Source of the DNA: Terrabacter aerolatus
GTDB taxonomy: Bacteria > Actinomycetota > Actinomycetes > Actinomycetales > Dermatophilaceae
Assembly: GCF_007991735.1 (NCBI RefSeq)
Contig: NZ_BJYX01000031.1
Location: 1 to 39,673, forward strand
Length of the DNA: 39,673 bases
Direction: 5' to 3'
The notes beneath the pieces were generated by a model. The model was not told where the DNA came from. It ran no database searches and worked only from the letters and a program-made list of their open reading frames with translations. The translations under genes and the position numbers were made by a program. This document shows positions 2,372 to 25,724 of this stretch, piece by piece. Numbering within the stretch: position 1 is the stretch's first letter; each line of letters starts with the position of its first letter.

Positions 2372-4633
2372 ATGCCTCACGCCGGGACCGAGTCCAGCCC
2401 CCTGACGCCGACCGACCGCGAGGCCGATCCGGCACCGGTGGACGAGGTGCGCGTCGACGAGGTCAGGGTGCTCGACGGGCCCAACCTGTACTTCGCCCGG
2501 CCGACGATCAAGGTGAGCCTGCACGTCCCCGGCTACCTCGAGCTCAAGCGCACCGACGCGGAGGCCCTGGCCCGTCGCCTCGGCATGCGCTCGGCCCGCC
2601 CAGGCAAGCGCGGGACCGCCCTGCGCCAGCGCTTCGTCATGCGGGTCATCCGCACCGTCACGCGCCGGGTGGGCACCGAGATCGGTGCGGGGCGCCTGGG
2701 TGTCCGCGTGCGGGCCGGCCAGACGGTCGAGGACGTCGTGCTCGCCTTCCCGTGGGTCCACCGCACGCGCGGCCGGGTGGCCGGTGAGCAGCTCGGGGCC
2801 GTCATGGCCGGGCTGCTCGACCCGACGCGACGTGCCGAGGACGTCATCGAGGAGGCCGCAGCCGTCATCGTCGCGGCACCCGACGGCCCCGGCCCCAGCG
2901 TCATCACCCCGACGGTGCCCGTCGCGTCCGTCACCGGCACCAACGGCAAGACGACGACGACCCGCCTCATGGCGCACATGTGCATGAGTGCCGGTCTCAC
3001 CACCGCCTGGAGCTCGACCGATGGTGTGGTCGTCATGGGTGAGACCAAGGAGGAGGGCGACTTCTCCGGACCGGCCGGGGCACGTGGTGTCCTCGAGACC
3101 CCGGGACTCGACATCGGCATCCTCGAGACCGCCCGCGGCGGCATGCTGCTCAAGGGCATGGGTGTCACCGCCAACGACGTCAGCGTCGTCACCAACGTCA
3201 GCGCCGACCACCTCGGGCTCCAGGGGATCGACACCCTCGACCAGCTCGCCGAGGTCAAGGCCATCGTCACGACGGTCACCAAGCCCCAGGGTTGGGTGGT
3301 CCTCAACGGCGACGACCCGCGCGTCTGGGCCATGCGTTTCGGCATCAAGGCCAAGACGTGGGCCTTCAGCCTCGACCCCGCGTCACCGGCACTGTGGGAG
3401 TCGATCAACTCCGGCGGTCGGGGCATCACGGTGCTCGACGGGGAGATCGTCGTCCTGTCGCCCAACGGCGACCCCGACCGGCTCGTCAAGATCGTCGACG
3501 TGCCGATGACCCTGAGCGGCCTGTCGCACAACAACATCGCCAACGCCCTGGCCGGCGCGGCTGCCGCCCTCGGCCTCGGTGTCCCGCGCTCGGCCGTCGT
3601 CGAGGGCCTGCGCACCTTCGCCCCGGACCCGGAGCACAACTGGGGACGGCTCAACACGTACTCGCTGCCCCTGCCGAGCGGTGGCAAGGCCACGGTCATC
3701 ATGGACATGGCGCACAACGAGGCCGGCCTCGAGGCGCTGCTCGAGGTCTCGCGGGGCCTGGCCGCCCCGGGCGGTGCCGTGCGGCTCGGTCTCGGCTGCG
3801 CCGGTGACCGTGCCGACGAGGCCATCGTCGCCATGGGTGAGATCGCCGGCCGCGGCGCCGAAGAGGTCGCCCTCAAGGTGGCCCGACACTACCTGCGCGG
3901 ACGTGAGGCCGAGGACCTGCTCGGCCTCTTCCGCGAGGGGCTCGCCAAGGTCGGCGTGCTCGACGTCCCCGGCTACGACACCGAGCTCGAGGCCCTCGTC
4001 GCCCTCGTGCCGCACGCGCTGGACGGCGACGTCATCGCCCTCATGTGCCACGCGGAGCGCACCGAGGTGGACCGATGGGTCCGCGAGCACGGCGGCAAGG
4101 TCGACGACGCTCGCTCGATCCGCCGCAAGGTCGTGGCCGCGCGCGGTGAGCACGAGCTCGAGGCGGAGATCGCCGCGCTCTGGGAGACCCACGACGAGCC
4201 GACCCGCCTCGCCGCGGCGCAGCAGCTCGTCGACGACCACCCCGGCGACGCCCGGCTCGTCTTCGAGCTGGCCGGCGTCAAGGACGCGATGGGCGACGAG
4301 CAGGGCGCCATCGGCCTCTACGAGGAGGCACTGGCCGACGGTCTGCGCGAGCCGCACCGGCACCGCGCCCAGCTCCAGCTCGCCTCCAGCCTGCGGGTCG
4401 TGGGGCGTGCCCCCGAGGCCCAGGGCCTCGTTGCCGACGTGCTCGAGGCGCGGCCCCACAACACGGCGGCGCTCATGCTGCGCGCCCTTGTGCAGGCTGA
4501 CCTCGGCCAGGAGCGCCAGGCCGTCGCCGACCTCATCCGGGCCACGCTGGAGGCCACGACCGACGTCGACACCCAGGCCTACCGCCGCGCCCTGCGCGCC
4601 TACGCCGACGAGCTGGCCCCCGCCGCCGACTGA
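2372..4633 (+). CDS. CphA-like Mur ligase without ATP-grasp domain, fused to C-terminal TPR repeats
   Basis: A 753-aa protein. Residues about 28-185 resemble a cyanophycin-synthetase N-domain remnant (VRVLDGPNLYF compares with CphA's RIYRGPNVW). The Mur-ligase ATP site VTGTNGKTTT is at 187-196, followed by segments nearly superimposable on the CphA M domain encoded nearby: ETARGGMLLKGMG, VVTNVSADHLGLQGIDT, LAEVKAIV, then NNIANALA and the DMAHNEAG stretch. No ATP-grasp (KP..G.GRG) motif is present. From about residue 593 to the end a helical repeat region (ARLVFELAGVKDAMGDEQGA; GLYEEALADGL; LRVVGRAPEA) matches TPR_5-like proteins. It is convergent with cphA and near cphB, so a role in cyanophycin or a related peptide polymer is inferred. 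Its substrate is unknown. The TPR part is a separate small protein in other actinobacteria as I recall, so this looks like a gene fusion; a sequencing error at the junction is possible but less likely, because the frame and codon use are continuous. Confidence 0.85.
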   Translation: MPHAGTESSPLTPTDREADPAPVDEVRVDEVRVLDGPNLYFARPTIKVSLHVPGYLELKRTDAEALARRLGMRSARPGKRGTALRQRFVMRVIRTVTRRVGTEIGAGRLGVRVRAGQTVEDVVLAFPWVHRTRGRVAGEQLGAVMAGLLDPTRRAEDVIEEAAAVIVAAPDGPGPSVITPTVPVASVTGTNGKTTTTRLMAHMCMSAGLTTAWSSTDGVVVMGETKEEGDFSGPAGARGVLETPGLDIGILETARGGMLLKGMGVTANDVSVVTNVSADHLGLQGIDTLDQLAEVKAIVTTVTKPQGWVVLNGDDPRVWAMRFGIKAKTWAFSLDPASPALWESINSGGRGITVLDGEIVVLSPNGDPDRLVKIVDVPMTLSGLSHNNIANALAGAAAALGLGVPRSAVVEGLRTFAPDPEHNWGRLNTYSLPLPSGGKATVIMDMAHNEAGLEALLEVSRGLAAPGGAVRLGLGCAGDRADEAIVAMGEIAGRGAEEVALKVARHYLRGREAEDLLGLFREGLAKVGVLDVPGYDTELEALVALVPHALDGDVIALMCHAERTEVDRWVREHGGKVDDARSIRRKVVAARGEHELEAEIAALWETHDEPTRLAAAQQLVDDHPGDARLVFELAGVKDAMGDEQGAIGLYEEALADGLREPHRHRAQLQLASSLRVVGRAPEAQGLVADVLEARPHNTAALMLRALVQADLGQERQAVADLIRATLEATTDVDTQAYRRALRAYADELAPAAD

Positions 4634-4673
4634 CGCCCGGTCCCGCCCAGACGTCCCCGGCTGCGGGGACACC

Positions 4674-4859
4674 CGCCGTCACAACCCCGCCGGGGCGGAG
4701 CTGTGGTGGTCTGTGGCCGCTCGCCGCCGTCACAACCCCGCCGGGGCGGAGCTGTGGTGGTCTGGGGCCGCTCGCCGCCGTCTCGACCCCGCCGGGGCGG
4801 AGCTGTGGTGGTCTGTGGCCGTTCGCCGCCGTCTCGACCCCGCCGGGGCGGAGTTGTGG
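4674..4859. repeat. 51-bp tandem repeat, about 3.6 copies, between convergent genes
   Basis: Copies start at 4674, 4725, 4776 and 4827 (the last is partial, 33 bp). Each holds a GC palindrome core ccccgccgggg followed by cggagctgtgg. Copies 1-2 share cacaac and copies 3-4 share ctcgac at the same place, suggesting two rounds of duplication. The period is a multiple of 3, so frames stay open on both strands, but no start or ribosome site supports a gene. It fills most of the 321-bp gap between the Mur ligase-TPR gene and cphA. Likely a hairpin-forming REP-like array or transcription barrier. Confidence 0.9.
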
Positions 4860-4881
4860 ACGGGCCAGCGCGCTCGCGGGT

Positions 4882-4911
4882 GCACCAGCCCCGCCCCGGC
4901 GGACCTGGTGC
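4882..4911. terminator. Hairpin in the convergent gap near the cphA 3' end
   Basis: Arms gcaccag (4882-4888) and ctggtgc (4905-4911) enclose a second GC stem (ccgcc/ggcgg). No clear T tract on either strand. It lies 44 bp past the cphA stop and could terminate either converging transcript. Confidence 0.4.
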
Positions 4912-4954
4912 GGTCGGCCGGGGCGGGGTCGTGGGCTGGCTTGAGGCCCGGGGG

Positions 4955-7846
4955 TCAGACGGCGGTGTCGTCGGCCGGCTCGGGGTGGGCGTCCGACGGC
5001 ACGGAGCCCAGGGCCTCGCCCTCGGCCTCCTCGCCCTCGGCCTCCGCCGTCTCGGTCAAGGTGCTCGGGTCCAGGTCGGGGTCGCTCGTGGCTGCCGCCG
5101 GCGTGCCGATGCGGGCGCCGGCCTGTGCGTGCTTGGTGCGCTCCTCGAGCTCGGCCACGACGAGGGCGTGCTGGTCGACGCACATGACGACGAGGTCGCC
5201 GGGGTTGGTCCGGGCCAGCACGTGCCGCGCGGCCTCGAGCTCGTCGAGGACCACCTCGACCTGACGACAGCGGGCGCCGTCCTTCATCGCCGCGTGGGCA
5301 CCCTCTGCGACGAGAGCGGCCGTCTCTCCCGGCTTGCGGCCCCGGAGGCGCTCGTCCTCGCGGACCACGATGACGTCGAAGTGCTGTGCGGCCACGGCGC
5401 CGAGCTCGCGCATGTCGTCGTCGCGCCGATCGCCCGCGGCGCCGATCATGCCGATGCGTGACGTACGACCGAGGTCGGACTGGCCCTCCTTCTGTGCCGC
5501 GTAGCGGTCGACGAAGGCACCGAGCTCCTTCATGCCGGCAGCGTTGTGGCAGTAGTCGACGAAGACGTCCGCGTTGCCGACCTGGACGAGGTTGAGGCGA
5601 CCGGGGGAGAGGTAGTACGTCGTGGCGAAGGTGCGCAGTCCCTGGCGGATGTCGTGCAGCGGGGCACCCGCGGCGAACGCCGCACCCGCGGCCGCGAGGG
5701 CGTTCGCGACGTTGAAGCGGGCCGCGCCCCCGAACGTCGAGGGCAGCAGGTGCGTCCAGGCGAGCTGCATGCTCCGGCGACCGTGCTTGATGACGATCAT
5801 CTCGCCGCGGTCGCTCGGCTCGAGCACGACGGCGCGACCACCGCGACGGCAGTAGTCGTCGACGAACTCACGCACCTCGCTGCCCGGCTCCGACATGGTG
5901 AACCAGACGATCCCGCCGGAGCAGCGTCGGCGCATGTTGCGCACGTTGACGTCGTCGGCGTTGAGCACCGCGAAGCCGTCTCGGGGCACGGCCTCGACGA
6001 TGACGGCCTTGACGTCGGCGAGCTGCCGGAGCGTGTCGATCCCCTTGAGCCCCAGGTGATCCGGCGCGACGTTGGTGACGACCGCGATGTCGTTGCGGTC
6101 GTAGCCGAGTCCCTCGCGGAGGATGCCGCCGCGGGCCACCTCCATGACGGCGAAGTCGACGCGCGGGTTCTGCAGCACCATCCGGGCCGAGCGGGGACCG
6201 GAGGCGTCGGCCTTGATGACGAGGCGCTCGTCGATGACGACGCCATCGGTCGAGGTCATGCCGACCTTGCGCCCGAGGCCCTTGAAGATGTGGGCGATCA
6301 TGCGCGAGGTGGTCGTCTTGCCGTTGGTGCCGGTGACGGCGACGATCGGCACGCGCGACTGGGCGCCCGGCGGGAAGAGCAGGTCGACGACGGGCTTGGC
6401 GATGAACTGCGGCTCGCCCACCGTCGGGTGCGTGTGCATGCGGAAGCCGGGTGCCGCGTTGACCTCGCAGATCGCGCCGCCCGTCTCGCGGACGGGGTAG
6501 GTGATGTCGGGGCAGATGAAGTCGATGCCGGCGACGTCGAGGCCGACGATCCGCGCGGCCTCCTCGGCGATCTCGACGTTGTCCGGGTGCGCGTCGAAGG
6601 TGCGGTCGATGGAGATGCCGCCGGTCGACATGTTGCCGGTCAGGGCGAGCTTGACCATCTCGCCCTCCGGCGGCACGGACTCCAGGGTGTGGCCCTGGCC
6701 GGCCAGGACCTCGAGCGCGTTGGCGTCGACCTTGATCTTCGTCAGGACCTTCTCGTGACCGACCCCGCGGCGCGGGTCGGCGTTCGTGATCTCGACGAGC
6801 TCGCCGACGGTGTGCGACCCGTCCCCGACGACGTGCGCAGGGACGCGCTCGGCGATCGCCTGCATGCGGCCGCCGACGATGAGGCAGCGGTAGTCGCGAC
6901 CCGTGACGAACGACTCGACGATGATGGTGCCGCGCCGGGACTCGCCCTTGGCGATCTCGAAGGCCTTGGCGACCTCCTCCTCGGTCTGCAGGTTGAGGCA
7001 GACGCCGCGGCCGTGGTTGCCGTCGAGCGGCTTGACGACCACGGGGAACCCGATGCGGCGCGCGGCCTCGATCGTGCCCCGCTCCGTGCGCGCGGACTCC
7101 TGCTTCGGCACGGGAAGTCCGGCCGACCCGAGCAGCTTGGTCGTCAGGTCCTTGTCGCTGGCGATGTCGACGGCGAGCGCACCGGTCTTCGACGTCATCG
7201 TGGCCCGGATGCGCTGGGCGTGGACGCCCTGCCCGAGCTGCACGAGCGACGCGGAGTTCAGACGGATGTAGGGGATGTCGCGGGCGGCGGCCTCCTCGAG
7301 GATCGCCGCCGTGGAGGGACCGAAGGCCACGCGCTCGGCCTGTCGCAGGAACGTGTTGAACTCGGTCTCGAAGTCGAAGCCGTCCTCGGCGTCCACGAGG
7401 TGGTTGACGAGACGCACGGCGAGCTTGCCCGCCGCGACGCCCACGGTCTCGTCGGTGTAGCTGTAGACGACGTTGTAGTGCCCCGGCTTCCCGCGGACGG
7501 CGCGGGTCTTGCCGCGCCGCGAGTCGTGGCCGGCCAGCGTCTGCAGCTGCAGCGCGACGTGCTCGGCGACGTGGCCGAGCCAGGTGCCCTCTCGCAGGCG
7601 CTCGATGAAGCCGCCGCGTCGCCCGAGCGAGCAGGTGTGCCGCTCGAGCCCCGGGACGAGCTCGACGAGACGATCGGTGAAGCCGGGGAGCGAGACGGTC
7701 GGGTACTCCTCGAGGCTGCCGAGGTCGACGACGAGGTGGATCGCCTGCTGGTAGGACCACACGTTGGGTCCGCGGTAGATCCGGGTCTCGAGGATCTTCA
7801 GGTCCGGTCGCGCCGGTCCTGTGGGCGTGGGTACCTCGACGGCCAT
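4955..7846 (-). CDS. cphA: Cyanophycin synthetase
   Basis: A 963-aa enzyme that builds cyanophycin by adding Asp and then Arg, each step using ATP. Three domains are visible: an N-domain (about 1-160, with RIYRGPNVWSY), an ATP-grasp domain (about 215-495) with KPLDGNHGRG starting at Lys272 and the ICEVNAAPGFRMHTHP metal/ATP region, and a Mur-ligase-like domain (about 500-900) with GTNGKT at 506-511 and VVTNVAPDHLGLKGIDT. Both ATP sites look intact. The last ~60 residues are an acidic Glu/Ala/Asp tail not needed by typical family members (about 870-900 aa). The start is ATG7846 with a strong aggagga site 5-11 nt upstream. It lies 99 bp downstream of cphB on the same strand; the gap holds a CGGCATAC copy (7886-7892). 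Its presence implies a nitrogen/carbon storage polymer in a non-photosynthetic bacterium. Confidence 0.95.
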   Translation of the reverse strand: MAVEVPTPTGPARPDLKILETRIYRGPNVWSYQQAIHLVVDLGSLEEYPTVSLPGFTDRLVELVPGLERHTCSLGRRGGFIERLREGTWLGHVAEHVALQLQTLAGHDSRRGKTRAVRGKPGHYNVVYSYTDETVGVAAGKLAVRLVNHLVDAEDGFDFETEFNTFLRQAERVAFGPSTAAILEEAAARDIPYIRLNSASLVQLGQGVHAQRIRATMTSKTGALAVDIASDKDLTTKLLGSAGLPVPKQESARTERGTIEAARRIGFPVVVKPLDGNHGRGVCLNLQTEEEVAKAFEIAKGESRRGTIIVESFVTGRDYRCLIVGGRMQAIAERVPAHVVGDGSHTVGELVEITNADPRRGVGHEKVLTKIKVDANALEVLAGQGHTLESVPPEGEMVKLALTGNMSTGGISIDRTFDAHPDNVEIAEEAARIVGLDVAGIDFICPDITYPVRETGGAICEVNAAPGFRMHTHPTVGEPQFIAKPVVDLLFPPGAQSRVPIVAVTGTNGKTTTSRMIAHIFKGLGRKVGMTSTDGVVIDERLVIKADASGPRSARMVLQNPRVDFAVMEVARGGILREGLGYDRNDIAVVTNVAPDHLGLKGIDTLRQLADVKAVIVEAVPRDGFAVLNADDVNVRNMRRRCSGGIVWFTMSEPGSEVREFVDDYCRRGGRAVVLEPSDRGEMIVIKHGRRSMQLAWTHLLPSTFGGAARFNVANALAAAGAAFAAGAPLHDIRQGLRTFATTYYLSPGRLNLVQVGNADVFVDYCHNAAGMKELGAFVDRYAAQKEGQSDLGRTSRIGMIGAAGDRRDDDMRELGAVAAQHFDVIVVREDERLRGRKPGETAALVAEGAHAAMKDGARCRQVEVVLDELEAARHVLARTNPGDLVVMCVDQHALVVAELEERTKHAQAGARIGTPAAATSDPDLDPSTLTETAEAEGEEAEGEALGSVPSDAHPEPADDTAV

Positions 7847-7945: not shown

Positions 7946-8866
7946 TCAGTGAGCGGCGCTGCTCGTCGCCGAGCGCGCCGCACGGACCTTGGCGGGGACG
8001 ACGGCGCCCTCGATGTCCGGGTGGCGTTCGACGAAGGCGGTCAGCTCGACGTGGTCCAGGTCGAACGTACTGCCCGTGGGCAGGGAGTGCACGACCGCGC
8101 CCGAAACGAGGAGCGGGGCCCCGCGACGCGCGTCGGGTGCGTCGGTGATCGCGTTGCGGGCGTTGACGAGGAAGATCGACCCCGCGCCGATGACAGACAT
8201 GACCTTGCCGTCGCGGATCTCGGCCGCGGTGTTCTCGTCGATGCCCATGCCGAGCAGGTTCGGCGAGGCGGCGACCATCGACATGAGCCTGCCGTAGCGC
8301 CCGCGCTGGTCGAAGTGCTGGTCGATGATGACGTCCTCGACGAGGCCGAGGCCGGCGGAGATCTGGCTCGCACGCTGCTTGGGCGTCAGGCCCTCCTCGC
8401 CGAGCGAGATCATGAAGCGGCTCATGATCGACGCCCCGGCCGACGTGCCGGCCACGACGGCGCCGCGCTCGTAGGCGCGCACGATGGCGTCGCCCACGGG
8501 GGTGCCGACGATGTTCTGGGCCAGCTTGACCTGGCTGCCGCCGGTGAGGAAGACGCCGGTCGCCGTGTCGAGCGCCTCGACCATCGCCGGGTCGTCGGAG
8601 TCGCGCCGGGTCTCGGGGTGCACGACCGAGACGTCGCCGCCGCGCAGCCGGGTGAAGACGTCGCGGTAGGCCTCGGAGACCTCGCCGGCGTACGAGGAGG
8701 CCGTCGGGATGACGACGAGGTGCGACCGGCGACCGCCGGCGAGCTTGATGAAGCGCTTGAGCACGACCGACCGGCCGACCCGGTCCTCGGCGCCTCCGAT
8801 GATGAGCAACGTTCGGCGCACGGCGCCCGGGTGCGCGGGTGCGGACGATGGATCCTCGGACTGCAT
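7946..8866 (-). CDS. cphB: Cyanophycinase (peptidase S51)
   Basis: A 306-aa serine-type exopeptidase that cleaves cyanophycin to beta-Asp-Arg dipeptides. The nucleophile elbow GTSAGAS has Ser142. Other family landmarks are LIIGGAEDRVG near the N-terminus, 'FLTGGSQVKL' and 'DQHFDQRGRYGRL'. Length is normal to slightly long for the family. ATG8866 is preceded after 6 nt by TAGGCT (8873-8878), whose TAG is also the stop codon of serB, so cphB has its own leaderless promoter even though it directly follows serB. Being next to cphA, it gives the cell both synthesis and first-step degradation; an isoaspartyl dipeptidase for the second step is not in the window. Confidence 0.94.
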   Translation of the reverse strand: MQSEDPSSAPAHPGAVRRTLLIIGGAEDRVGRSVVLKRFIKLAGGRRSHLVVIPTASSYAGEVSEAYRDVFTRLRGGDVSVVHPETRRDSDDPAMVEALDTATGVFLTGGSQVKLAQNIVGTPVGDAIVRAYERGAVVAGTSAGASIMSRFMISLGEEGLTPKQRASQISAGLGLVEDVIIDQHFDQRGRYGRLMSMVAASPNLLGMGIDENTAAEIRDGKVMSVIGAGSIFLVNARNAITDAPDARRGAPLLVSGAVVHSLPTGSTFDLDHVELTAFVERHPDIEGAVVPAKVRAARSATSSAAH

Positions 8867-25637: not shown

Positions 25638-25724
25638 TGGTGTCGAGGGGGGGACTTGAACCCCCACGCCCGTTAAGGGCACTAGCACCTCAAGCTAGCG
25701 CGTCTGCCATTCCGCCACCCCGAC
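25638..25724 (-). tRNA. tRNA-Leu (anticodon GAG)
   Basis: An 87-nt class II tRNA with CCA encoded. Acceptor gtcgggg pairs with cctcgac (one G-U); the anticodon arm ctagc-ttgaggt-gctag gives GAG, reading CUC/CUU; a long variable arm (tgcccttaacgggcg) is as expected for Leu; the T arm ggggg-ttcaagt-ccccc is intact; discriminator base is A, as needed for leucine. Confidence 0.97.

Follow-up and report, generated by a model that had tools for sequence, protein, structure and literature searches.

Current descriptions assign cyanophycin synthesis to a single enzyme, CphA1, joined in some cyanobacteria by CphA2. According to the sections of PMC9427784 and PMC9262961 used here, the G (ATP-grasp) domain of CphA1 adds Asp and the M domain adds Arg; the N domain binds the polymer (PMC9262961), the chain sits between N domain and M core (PMC9427784), and a zinc site with the motif Cx19HxxEH makes primers (PMC9262961). 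CphA2 repolymerises beta-Asp-Arg (PMC9427784, PMC9262961) and is described as being without the M P-loop and lid (PMC9427784). Here, we analyzed a stretch of 39,673 nucleotides from Terrabacter aerolatus (contig NZ_BJYX01000031.1, called the window below), in which a complete cphA of the CphA1 type, with N, ATP-grasp, and M domains (positions 4955 to 7846, minus strand; 1161 bits against TIGR02068, cut-off 850), converges with a gene for a CphA paralogue of 753 amino acids (2372 to 4633, plus strand). This paralogue, here named the partner, has an N domain, an M domain, and tetratricopeptide repeats (TPR), and is without an ATP-grasp domain.

With CphA1 (TIGR02068; 7lg5, 7lgq, 7txv, 7wae), the partner shares the N-domain fold, a complete M domain, the N-M arrangement, the same ATP and catalytic residues, and the same gene neighborhood. 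It differs from CphA1 in having neither the ATP-grasp G domain nor Cx19HxxEH, in Y507 and H560 of the lid, and in its optional TPR tail. Like CphA2, it is a cut-down CphA relative in a cyanophycin system, but it is the mirror of CphA2, which keeps the ATP-grasp domain and loses the M P-loop and lid, whereas the partner keeps M without ATP-grasp. A first-pass annotation of the window had placed the gene outside the CphA1/CphA2 scheme, and our analysis agrees, given that both the ATP-grasp domain and the zinc site are missing and the layout is the reverse of that of CphA2. We propose, at a probability of about one in two, that the partner would be a separate M-type ligase that attaches an amino acid to cyanophycin or to one of its precursors; this amino acid is perhaps not arginine.

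Results

Searches against Pfam placed Mur_ligase_M at residues 187 to 399 of the partner, Mur_ligase_C at 438 to 558, and TPR_5 at 629 to 748 (E 4.7e-23 for TPR_5), and returned no ATP-grasp model at E ≤ 1e-3, bearing out the missing domain noted in the first-pass annotation. The coordinates and strands given there, and both pairs of motif strings said to be shared by the partner and the CphA encoded opposite, were likewise correct; the two proteins align with 38% identity over 358 columns (BLASTP, E 2e-52). The best NCBIfam models of the partner are two cyanophycin synthetase models, matched in their C-terminal half only, and TIGR02068 is hit at positions 478 to 849 with 329.8 bits, below its curated cut-off of 850. 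Among structures in the PDB, CphA is matched at 4e-61 versus 6e-13 for the best MurE-like chain, and the MurE family cut-off is not reached (best score 81.6 of 373). MurE (1e8c, 2wtz, 8g6p; the genome's own MurE at L001) is the first non-CphA match by fold and the best non-CphA family, and it shares the Mur-ligase core and lid; unlike MurE, the partner has no DNPR motif, scores below the family cut-off, and carries a CphA-type N domain. Family scores and PDB matches thus rule out that the partner is a MurE or folate-type enzyme. The genome holds seven open reading frames (ORFs) with Mur_ligase_M, namely the partner, cphA, a cluster of four on contig C3, and a single one on C13, and a displaced peptidoglycan gene is therefore unlikely.

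The M domain, comprising core and lid, spans residues 178 to 575 (2903 to 4096, plus strand; PF08245/PF02875 and TIGR02068, with a profile envelope of 178 to 582). We compared its columns in 57 partners and 133 CphA rows, using rows of at least 360 model positions and a partner set without the short protein of Duganella locus L110 (see below). ATP or magnesium contacts of TeCphA1 are K499, T500, T522, E558, R731, and H748 (PMC9427784), and the exchange D585A H586A inactivates SuCphA1 with loss of M activity (PMC9262961), as reported in the parts of these papers used. The matching residues of the partner, K193, T194, T216, E252, R426, H448, D279, and H280, occur in every one of the 57 partners and also in three plasmid-borne ones from Shinella, Roseateles, and Ruegeria; K193 and T194 lie in the P-loop TGTNGKT (residues 188 to 194; 2933 to 2953, plus strand), and D279-H280 (3206 to 3211, plus strand) aligns with SuCphA1 D585-H586. 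A loss of Mur catalytic residues, which would speak against an active ligase, was hence not seen for these eight residues. In total, 59 columns hold the same residue at 90% or more in both groups.

Other columns separate the two groups. G236 and N423 are found in 57/57 partners, where CphA has Ser in 129 of 133 rows and Asn in only 7 of 133, respectively. Y507, also invariant in the 57 partners and in the three plasmid-borne ones, falls at a position with mixed residues in CphA; it opens the partner-specific lid loop Y507-L-R-G-R511 (3890 to 3904, plus strand), which stands where MurE has DNPR and contains a one-residue insertion relative to CphA. H560 (4049 to 4051, plus strand), in the lid loop aligned with MurE GKGHE, is kept in 56 of the 57 partners, whereas 127 of 133 CphA rows have Asp or Glu; the plasmid-borne partners agree at the partner-specific sites except for a Leu in place of H560 in Ruegeria. 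We take the DNPR and GKGHE loops of MurE to be those that choose the amino acid. Because the lid sites aligned with them (Y507 and H560) differ from CphA, we infer from the sequences that the donor pocket of the partner is remodelled.

These residues bear on an explanation in which the partner adds arginine in trans, as a helper or repair enzyme that arginylates Asp side chains left bare by CphA or relieves a slower M step. The kept catalytic residues, and the lid residues R509, R511, and E538 that are common to partner and CphA, would suit such a role; the M-domain catalytic residues are also almost all kept in the 133 CphA rows, including the CphAs of partner genomes. However, G236, N423, and Y507 are fixed, H560 is nearly so, and together with the insertion in the DNPR-type loop this is more change than a helper needs, so that we regard an arginine helper as rather unlikely.

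The TPR repeats (PF12688, residues 629 to 748; 4256 to 4615, plus strand) are optional in the family. The first-pass annotation had described a tail of about 160 residues, which is real in the window protein and does not hold for the family: among 56 partner ORFs, counted apart from that of the window, tails of 159 to 178 residues in the place of the TPR were found in 26, tails of 22 residues or fewer past the M domain in 28, and tails of 56 and 64 residues in the remaining 2. With a comparable tail in 26/56 ORFs, TPR as a defining part of the family was ruled out. The long tails are what would be expected if the partner were a pseudoenzyme or granule scaffold whose TPR docks CphA or the granule in the family of the window. 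Yet the eight catalytic and ATP residues are kept in all 57 partners and half of the ORFs end shortly after the M domain, which makes a scaffold very improbable.

Upstream of the M domain, residues 26 to 177 (2447 to 2902, plus strand) form a divergent CphA-type N domain, as judged by hhalign and by AlphaFold2 with Foldseek. The N-terminal GPN motif pointed out in the first-pass annotation is present as GPNLYF (residues 36 to 41; 2477 to 2494, plus strand) and marks the start of this domain. When 53 partner N regions from the actinobacterial set were compared with 78 N domains of CphA, the probability was 94% (E 1.6e-7, 139 columns), while nine controls (one reversed, eight column-shuffled) reached 14.4% at most. 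The match between four N regions from other phyla and the actinobacterial partner N regions reached 63%, covering 26 columns. When six other-phylum rows were used and the linker was added, CphA was matched at 78% (E 1.7e-5; reversed control 0.1%), and this match extends to the linker just before the CphA ATP-grasp domain. In SuCphA1, residues 14 and 17 are reported to belong to a hydrophobic loop touching the M domain (PMC9262961, in the sections used). By its position, the GPN loop would correspond to this loop.

An AlphaFold2 model of residues 26 to 753 of the window partner (pLDDT 93.8, pTM 0.82) predicts that a CphA-like N domain packs against a complete Mur-ligase domain. Its first nine PDB matches in Foldseek are cyanophycin synthetase chains. 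The model (728 residues) aligns with 7wae_A (877 residues) over 893 columns (query TM 0.65, rmsd 6.1 Å), therefore placing both N and M and leaving the ATP-grasp domain as a gap. A model of the partner from an Acidobacteria metagenome-assembled genome (MAG) (pLDDT 84.3, lower in the N domain; pTM 0.88) also had nine CphA chains as first matches, with a query TM of 0.77 and an rmsd of 9.2 Å to 7wae_A.

The HxxEH zinc site was found in none of the 57 partners, and a zinc-peptidase role of their N domain is thus unlikely. The motif Cx19HxxEH is present in the CphA of the window (residues 72 to 96; 7559 to 7633, minus strand), in 57 of 60 CphA rows of the actinobacterial set, and in 99 of 133 CphA rows overall (row set for N domain and zinc motif: at least 330 model positions). 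The net charge of the N domain averaged +6.3 in actinobacterial partners (n = 53) and -13 in the 4 partners from other phyla, with about -5 in CphA; charge was dropped as a sign of polymer binding since the two partner types have opposite signs.

We further analyzed where the partner occurs, using three overlapping genome samples of 58 (own genome and relatives), 393 (class), and 296 (phylum) genomes. Both genes were present in 31 of the 58 genomes, and none of the 58 had one alone; within the window's own family, the partner accompanies cphA in 30 of 36 sampled members. At class level, 27 genomes had both and 7 had cphA alone (E ≤ 1e-20); at phylum level, 16 had both and none had one alone (E ≤ 1e-40), with the partner only partly visible in three of the 16 (G574, G584, and G603). 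All samples together yielded 66 different partner genomes, and 66 of 66 carry cphA, which answers the concern of the first-pass annotation that the two genes might not co-occur elsewhere. The arrangement of the window also recurs in actinobacteria, being convergent in 49 of 49 loci that hold both genes. This set includes L043, a MAG that branches with actinobacteria, and is without L044 and the genomes split over contigs; in two class genomes, G064 and G163, the two genes lie on different contigs. Genes around the 49 convergent loci include fabG-like (47), fabI-like (46), serB-like (41), and glgC-like (19) ones. An N-M relative near or next to cphA was also found in Nocardioides, where forms of roughly 570 amino acids occur (L042 and L044).

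Outside this set, the partner directly adjoins cphA on the same strand in Lysobacter, Cysteiniphilum, Plesiocystis, and the Acidobacteria MAG. Plasmids of Shinella, Roseateles, and Ruegeria have the same-strand order cphB-cphA-'Mur ligase family protein', the last being the name given to the partner by NCBI; the Roseateles record is marked UNVERIFIED_ORG, and its partner is 94% identical to that of Shinella. These plasmid genes fall on the same side of the tree and encode the same N-M layout; unlike the window partner, their products have no TPR and a different N-domain sequence, and the genes are in same-strand order. The Lysobacter, Plesiocystis, Acidobacteria MAG, Shinella, and Ruegeria loci rule out that the pair is special to actinobacteria. 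From convergent and same-strand loci together, it follows that the two arrangements keep the same neighbor, cphA.

A tree of 88 M domains (IQ-TREE, LG+C20, unrooted) split 23 partners from 65 other CphA-type rows by a branch with 100/99 support, present in 200 of 200 bootstrap trees, and a 75-row M-domain tree gave the same split. In a quick-search tree with three very long outgroup rows of Mur/FolC type, the partners form a grade below CphA and no single clade. A grouping with MurE or FPGS instead of CphA had been named as a possible outcome, and with these three outgroup rows the partner adjoins CphA. The outgroup tree was built from rows of at least 290 model positions, without 24 near-copy CphA loci and with partners from a list of 29; the 75- and 88-row trees were built without the three Mur rows and without 24 more name prefixes. 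The partner group spans at least four phyla.

Since the 100/99 branch separates partners from CphA, the partner is not a recently broken cphA, and both the 75- and the 88-row tree rule out a recent truncation of the neighboring gene. N-M proteins do arise from CphA: a protein of Duganella sp. sic0402 (L110, 11220 to 13322, minus strand) and one on a Legionella adelaidensis plasmid (L219, 3323 to 5191, plus strand) have this layout outside the partner group and branch with the CphA of the same locus and with congeneric CphA, respectively. The layout therefore arose elsewhere too; the Legionella protein still has HxxEH, and no full cphA was seen in the stretch read. The idea that the partner is a cphA copy that decayed or was truncated recently, and has no particular function, is already contradicted by the spread of its group over at least four phyla, the well-supported split from CphA, the open frames, and the fixed sites, and can practically be dismissed. 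The ATP-grasp domain was either lost toward the partner or later inserted into an older, partner-like layout; the shared linker fits both.

The partner evolved together with cphA, and the two are inherited jointly. Distances among partners and among their CphAs correlate with r = 0.88 for 17 pairs (0 of 5000 permutations as high) and with r = 0.75 when only the 7 non-actinobacterial pairs are taken, which include two near-copies (20 of 5000 permutations). On the CphA tree, presence of the partner requires 3 changes, compared with a mean of 16.1 and a minimum of 11 in 1000 shuffles, where absence means that no partner was found in the fetched stretch and 9 CphA rows of undefined state (contigs ending near cphA and the like) were set aside. 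The CphAs of sampled partner-bearing genomes fall into one CphA clade (99/93 in the 75-row tree); in some members of this clade (L091, G085, and G307) no partner was detected.

We also looked for dipeptidases of cyanophycin breakdown. The own genome has no match to PF01112 (IaaA), PF04952, or PF24827 (AstE/AspA type) and only a match below cut-off to IadA (TIGR01975); PF01112 is missing in 30 of 31 pair-bearing relatives, and TIGR01975 was found at E ≤ 1e-20 in 0 of 58 relatives. Judged by these family models, known beta-Asp-Arg dipeptidases look absent from the own genome and most relatives. This would leave the handling of dipeptides in pair-bearing bacteria unexplained, and the partner could then be an active small-molecule ligase near the pathway, for example one that makes or recycles beta-aspartyl dipeptides. 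On the other hand, its N domain is of the CphA type, and the N domain of CphA1 binds the polymer (PMC9262961, sections used); moreover, PF01112 is present in 3 of 54 pair-bearing genomes of the 58- and 393-genome samples, so that enzyme and partner are not mutually exclusive. We therefore consider a small-molecule ligase improbable. As a clue to function, the missing isoaspartyl dipeptidase was judged weak, given these 3 of 54 genomes and a survey that differs, with IadA/IaaA listed in all 35 Actinomycetota cphA1 genomes on the basis of other queries (Table 2 of PMC10206079, among the parts used).

Discussion

The preferred reading is thus that of a separate ligase of the M type that acts alongside CphA. 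Following the mechanism of Mur ligases and of the M domain of CphA, the partner would use ATP to turn a carboxylate into an acyl phosphate, to which an amino acid would then be joined with release of ADP and phosphate. Its acceptor would most likely be cyanophycin or a cyanophycin-like beta-aspartyl chain lying between the N domain and the M core; cyanophycin is suggested as the substrate by the N domain and by the linkage to cphA. CphA would do the polymerising, as the partner, having N and M only, should not be able to extend the backbone. More tentatively, because the lid differs, the partner probably does not just add arginine in the way CphA does, and it would yield a cyanophycin that is modified, capped, or of mixed composition. 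Being constantly in the company of a complete CphA with kept M residues, the partner replaces no obviously lost step, and would therefore add something that CphA does not, or where CphA does not. Its joint evolution with cphA suggests a way of building or modifying cyanophycin that is new to the literature covered here.

Several observations weigh against the proposal of a separate ligase. Most of the sequence signal of the N domain lies in the GPN block, without which the match to CphA is weak (E 0.012, 3.6%), and the four other-phylum N regions alone match the CphA N domain at 27% (all CphA) or 11% (non-actinobacterial CphA). The Foldseek rmsd values to 7wae_A, 6.1 and 9.2 Å, are large. Since the N-domain charge has opposite signs between the partner types, it gives no evidence of a polymer-binding surface common to both. 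In the lid, R509, R511, and E538 are common to partner and CphA, which leaves room for Arg as the donor, two partners (L043 and Ruegeria) have Leu in place of H560, and the proposed donor specificity would depend on an alignment with MurE loops. Finally, the co-inheritance of partner and CphA in actinobacteria is partly vertical.

As half of a CphA whose active site looks intact, the partner would bring a third architecture to cyanophycin synthesis and, probably, a new reaction. Its reach beyond the window's own family extends to proteobacteria, Myxococcota, and Acidobacteriota. A wider version, for which we judge the chances to be clearly below even, is that cyanophycin in partner-bearing bacteria would not be the textbook polymer: the partner would represent a dedicated third family of the CphA kind, spread along with one CphA lineage through at least four phyla, that adds a different amino acid to side chains or chain ends and thereby gives a new storage polymer. 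Surveys that score partner genes as a second 'cphA copy' may miscount.

An ATP-grasp-less CphA relative was not found described among the matches listed from the open-access literature, a search that left subscription papers mostly outside. PMC10206079 surveys cyanophycin gene clusters, and the term 'Mur ligase' is absent from its main text; PMC11915815, in the part used, lists 12 Mur-domain members, CphA being one of them. In two Tetrasphaera MAGs, according to PMC10687191, a pair of cphA copies lies 'in series' close to cphB, with lower expression of the shorter copy, in clusters that hold serB, glgC, and glgA. This shorter copy is possibly a partner gene, although the Tetrasphaera copies are 'in series', with the domains and function of the short copy undescribed in the sections used, whereas partner and cphA converge.

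Further genes of the CphA kind were seen alongside the pair. A CphA2-like gene, cphA', adjoins cphA on its front side in betaproteobacterial and some other loci (L060, L066, L067, L072, L080, L082, L085, L087, L088, L096, L097, L108, and L111 to L115); its products keep the N and ATP-grasp region, with a partial M domain without GTNGK. On Deinococcus plasmids (L213 to L215), 'Mur ligase family protein' genes branch with CphA and their ATP-grasp region looks damaged, and CphA-type genes occur on three D. deserti and two D. taeanensis plasmid records. Two full-length cphA genes in one stretch were observed in a Bacteroidetes MAG and a Schlesneria MAG (L093 and L094).

In the window itself, the gene next after cphA is cphB for cyanophycinase (7946 to 8866, minus strand; 226 bits against TIGR02069), as the first-pass annotation had it. 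The conserved context upstream of the partner consists of two plus-strand genes at 755 to 1489 and 1514 to 2332, which we take to be fabG-like and fabI-like, respectively. A G+C-rich unit of 51 bases is repeated in 3.7 copies with 95% matches at 4673 to 4859, between the convergent stops of partner and cphA. A tRNA-Leu (gag) at 25638 to 25724 on the minus strand is the sole tRNA and the sole above-threshold Rfam match in the window.

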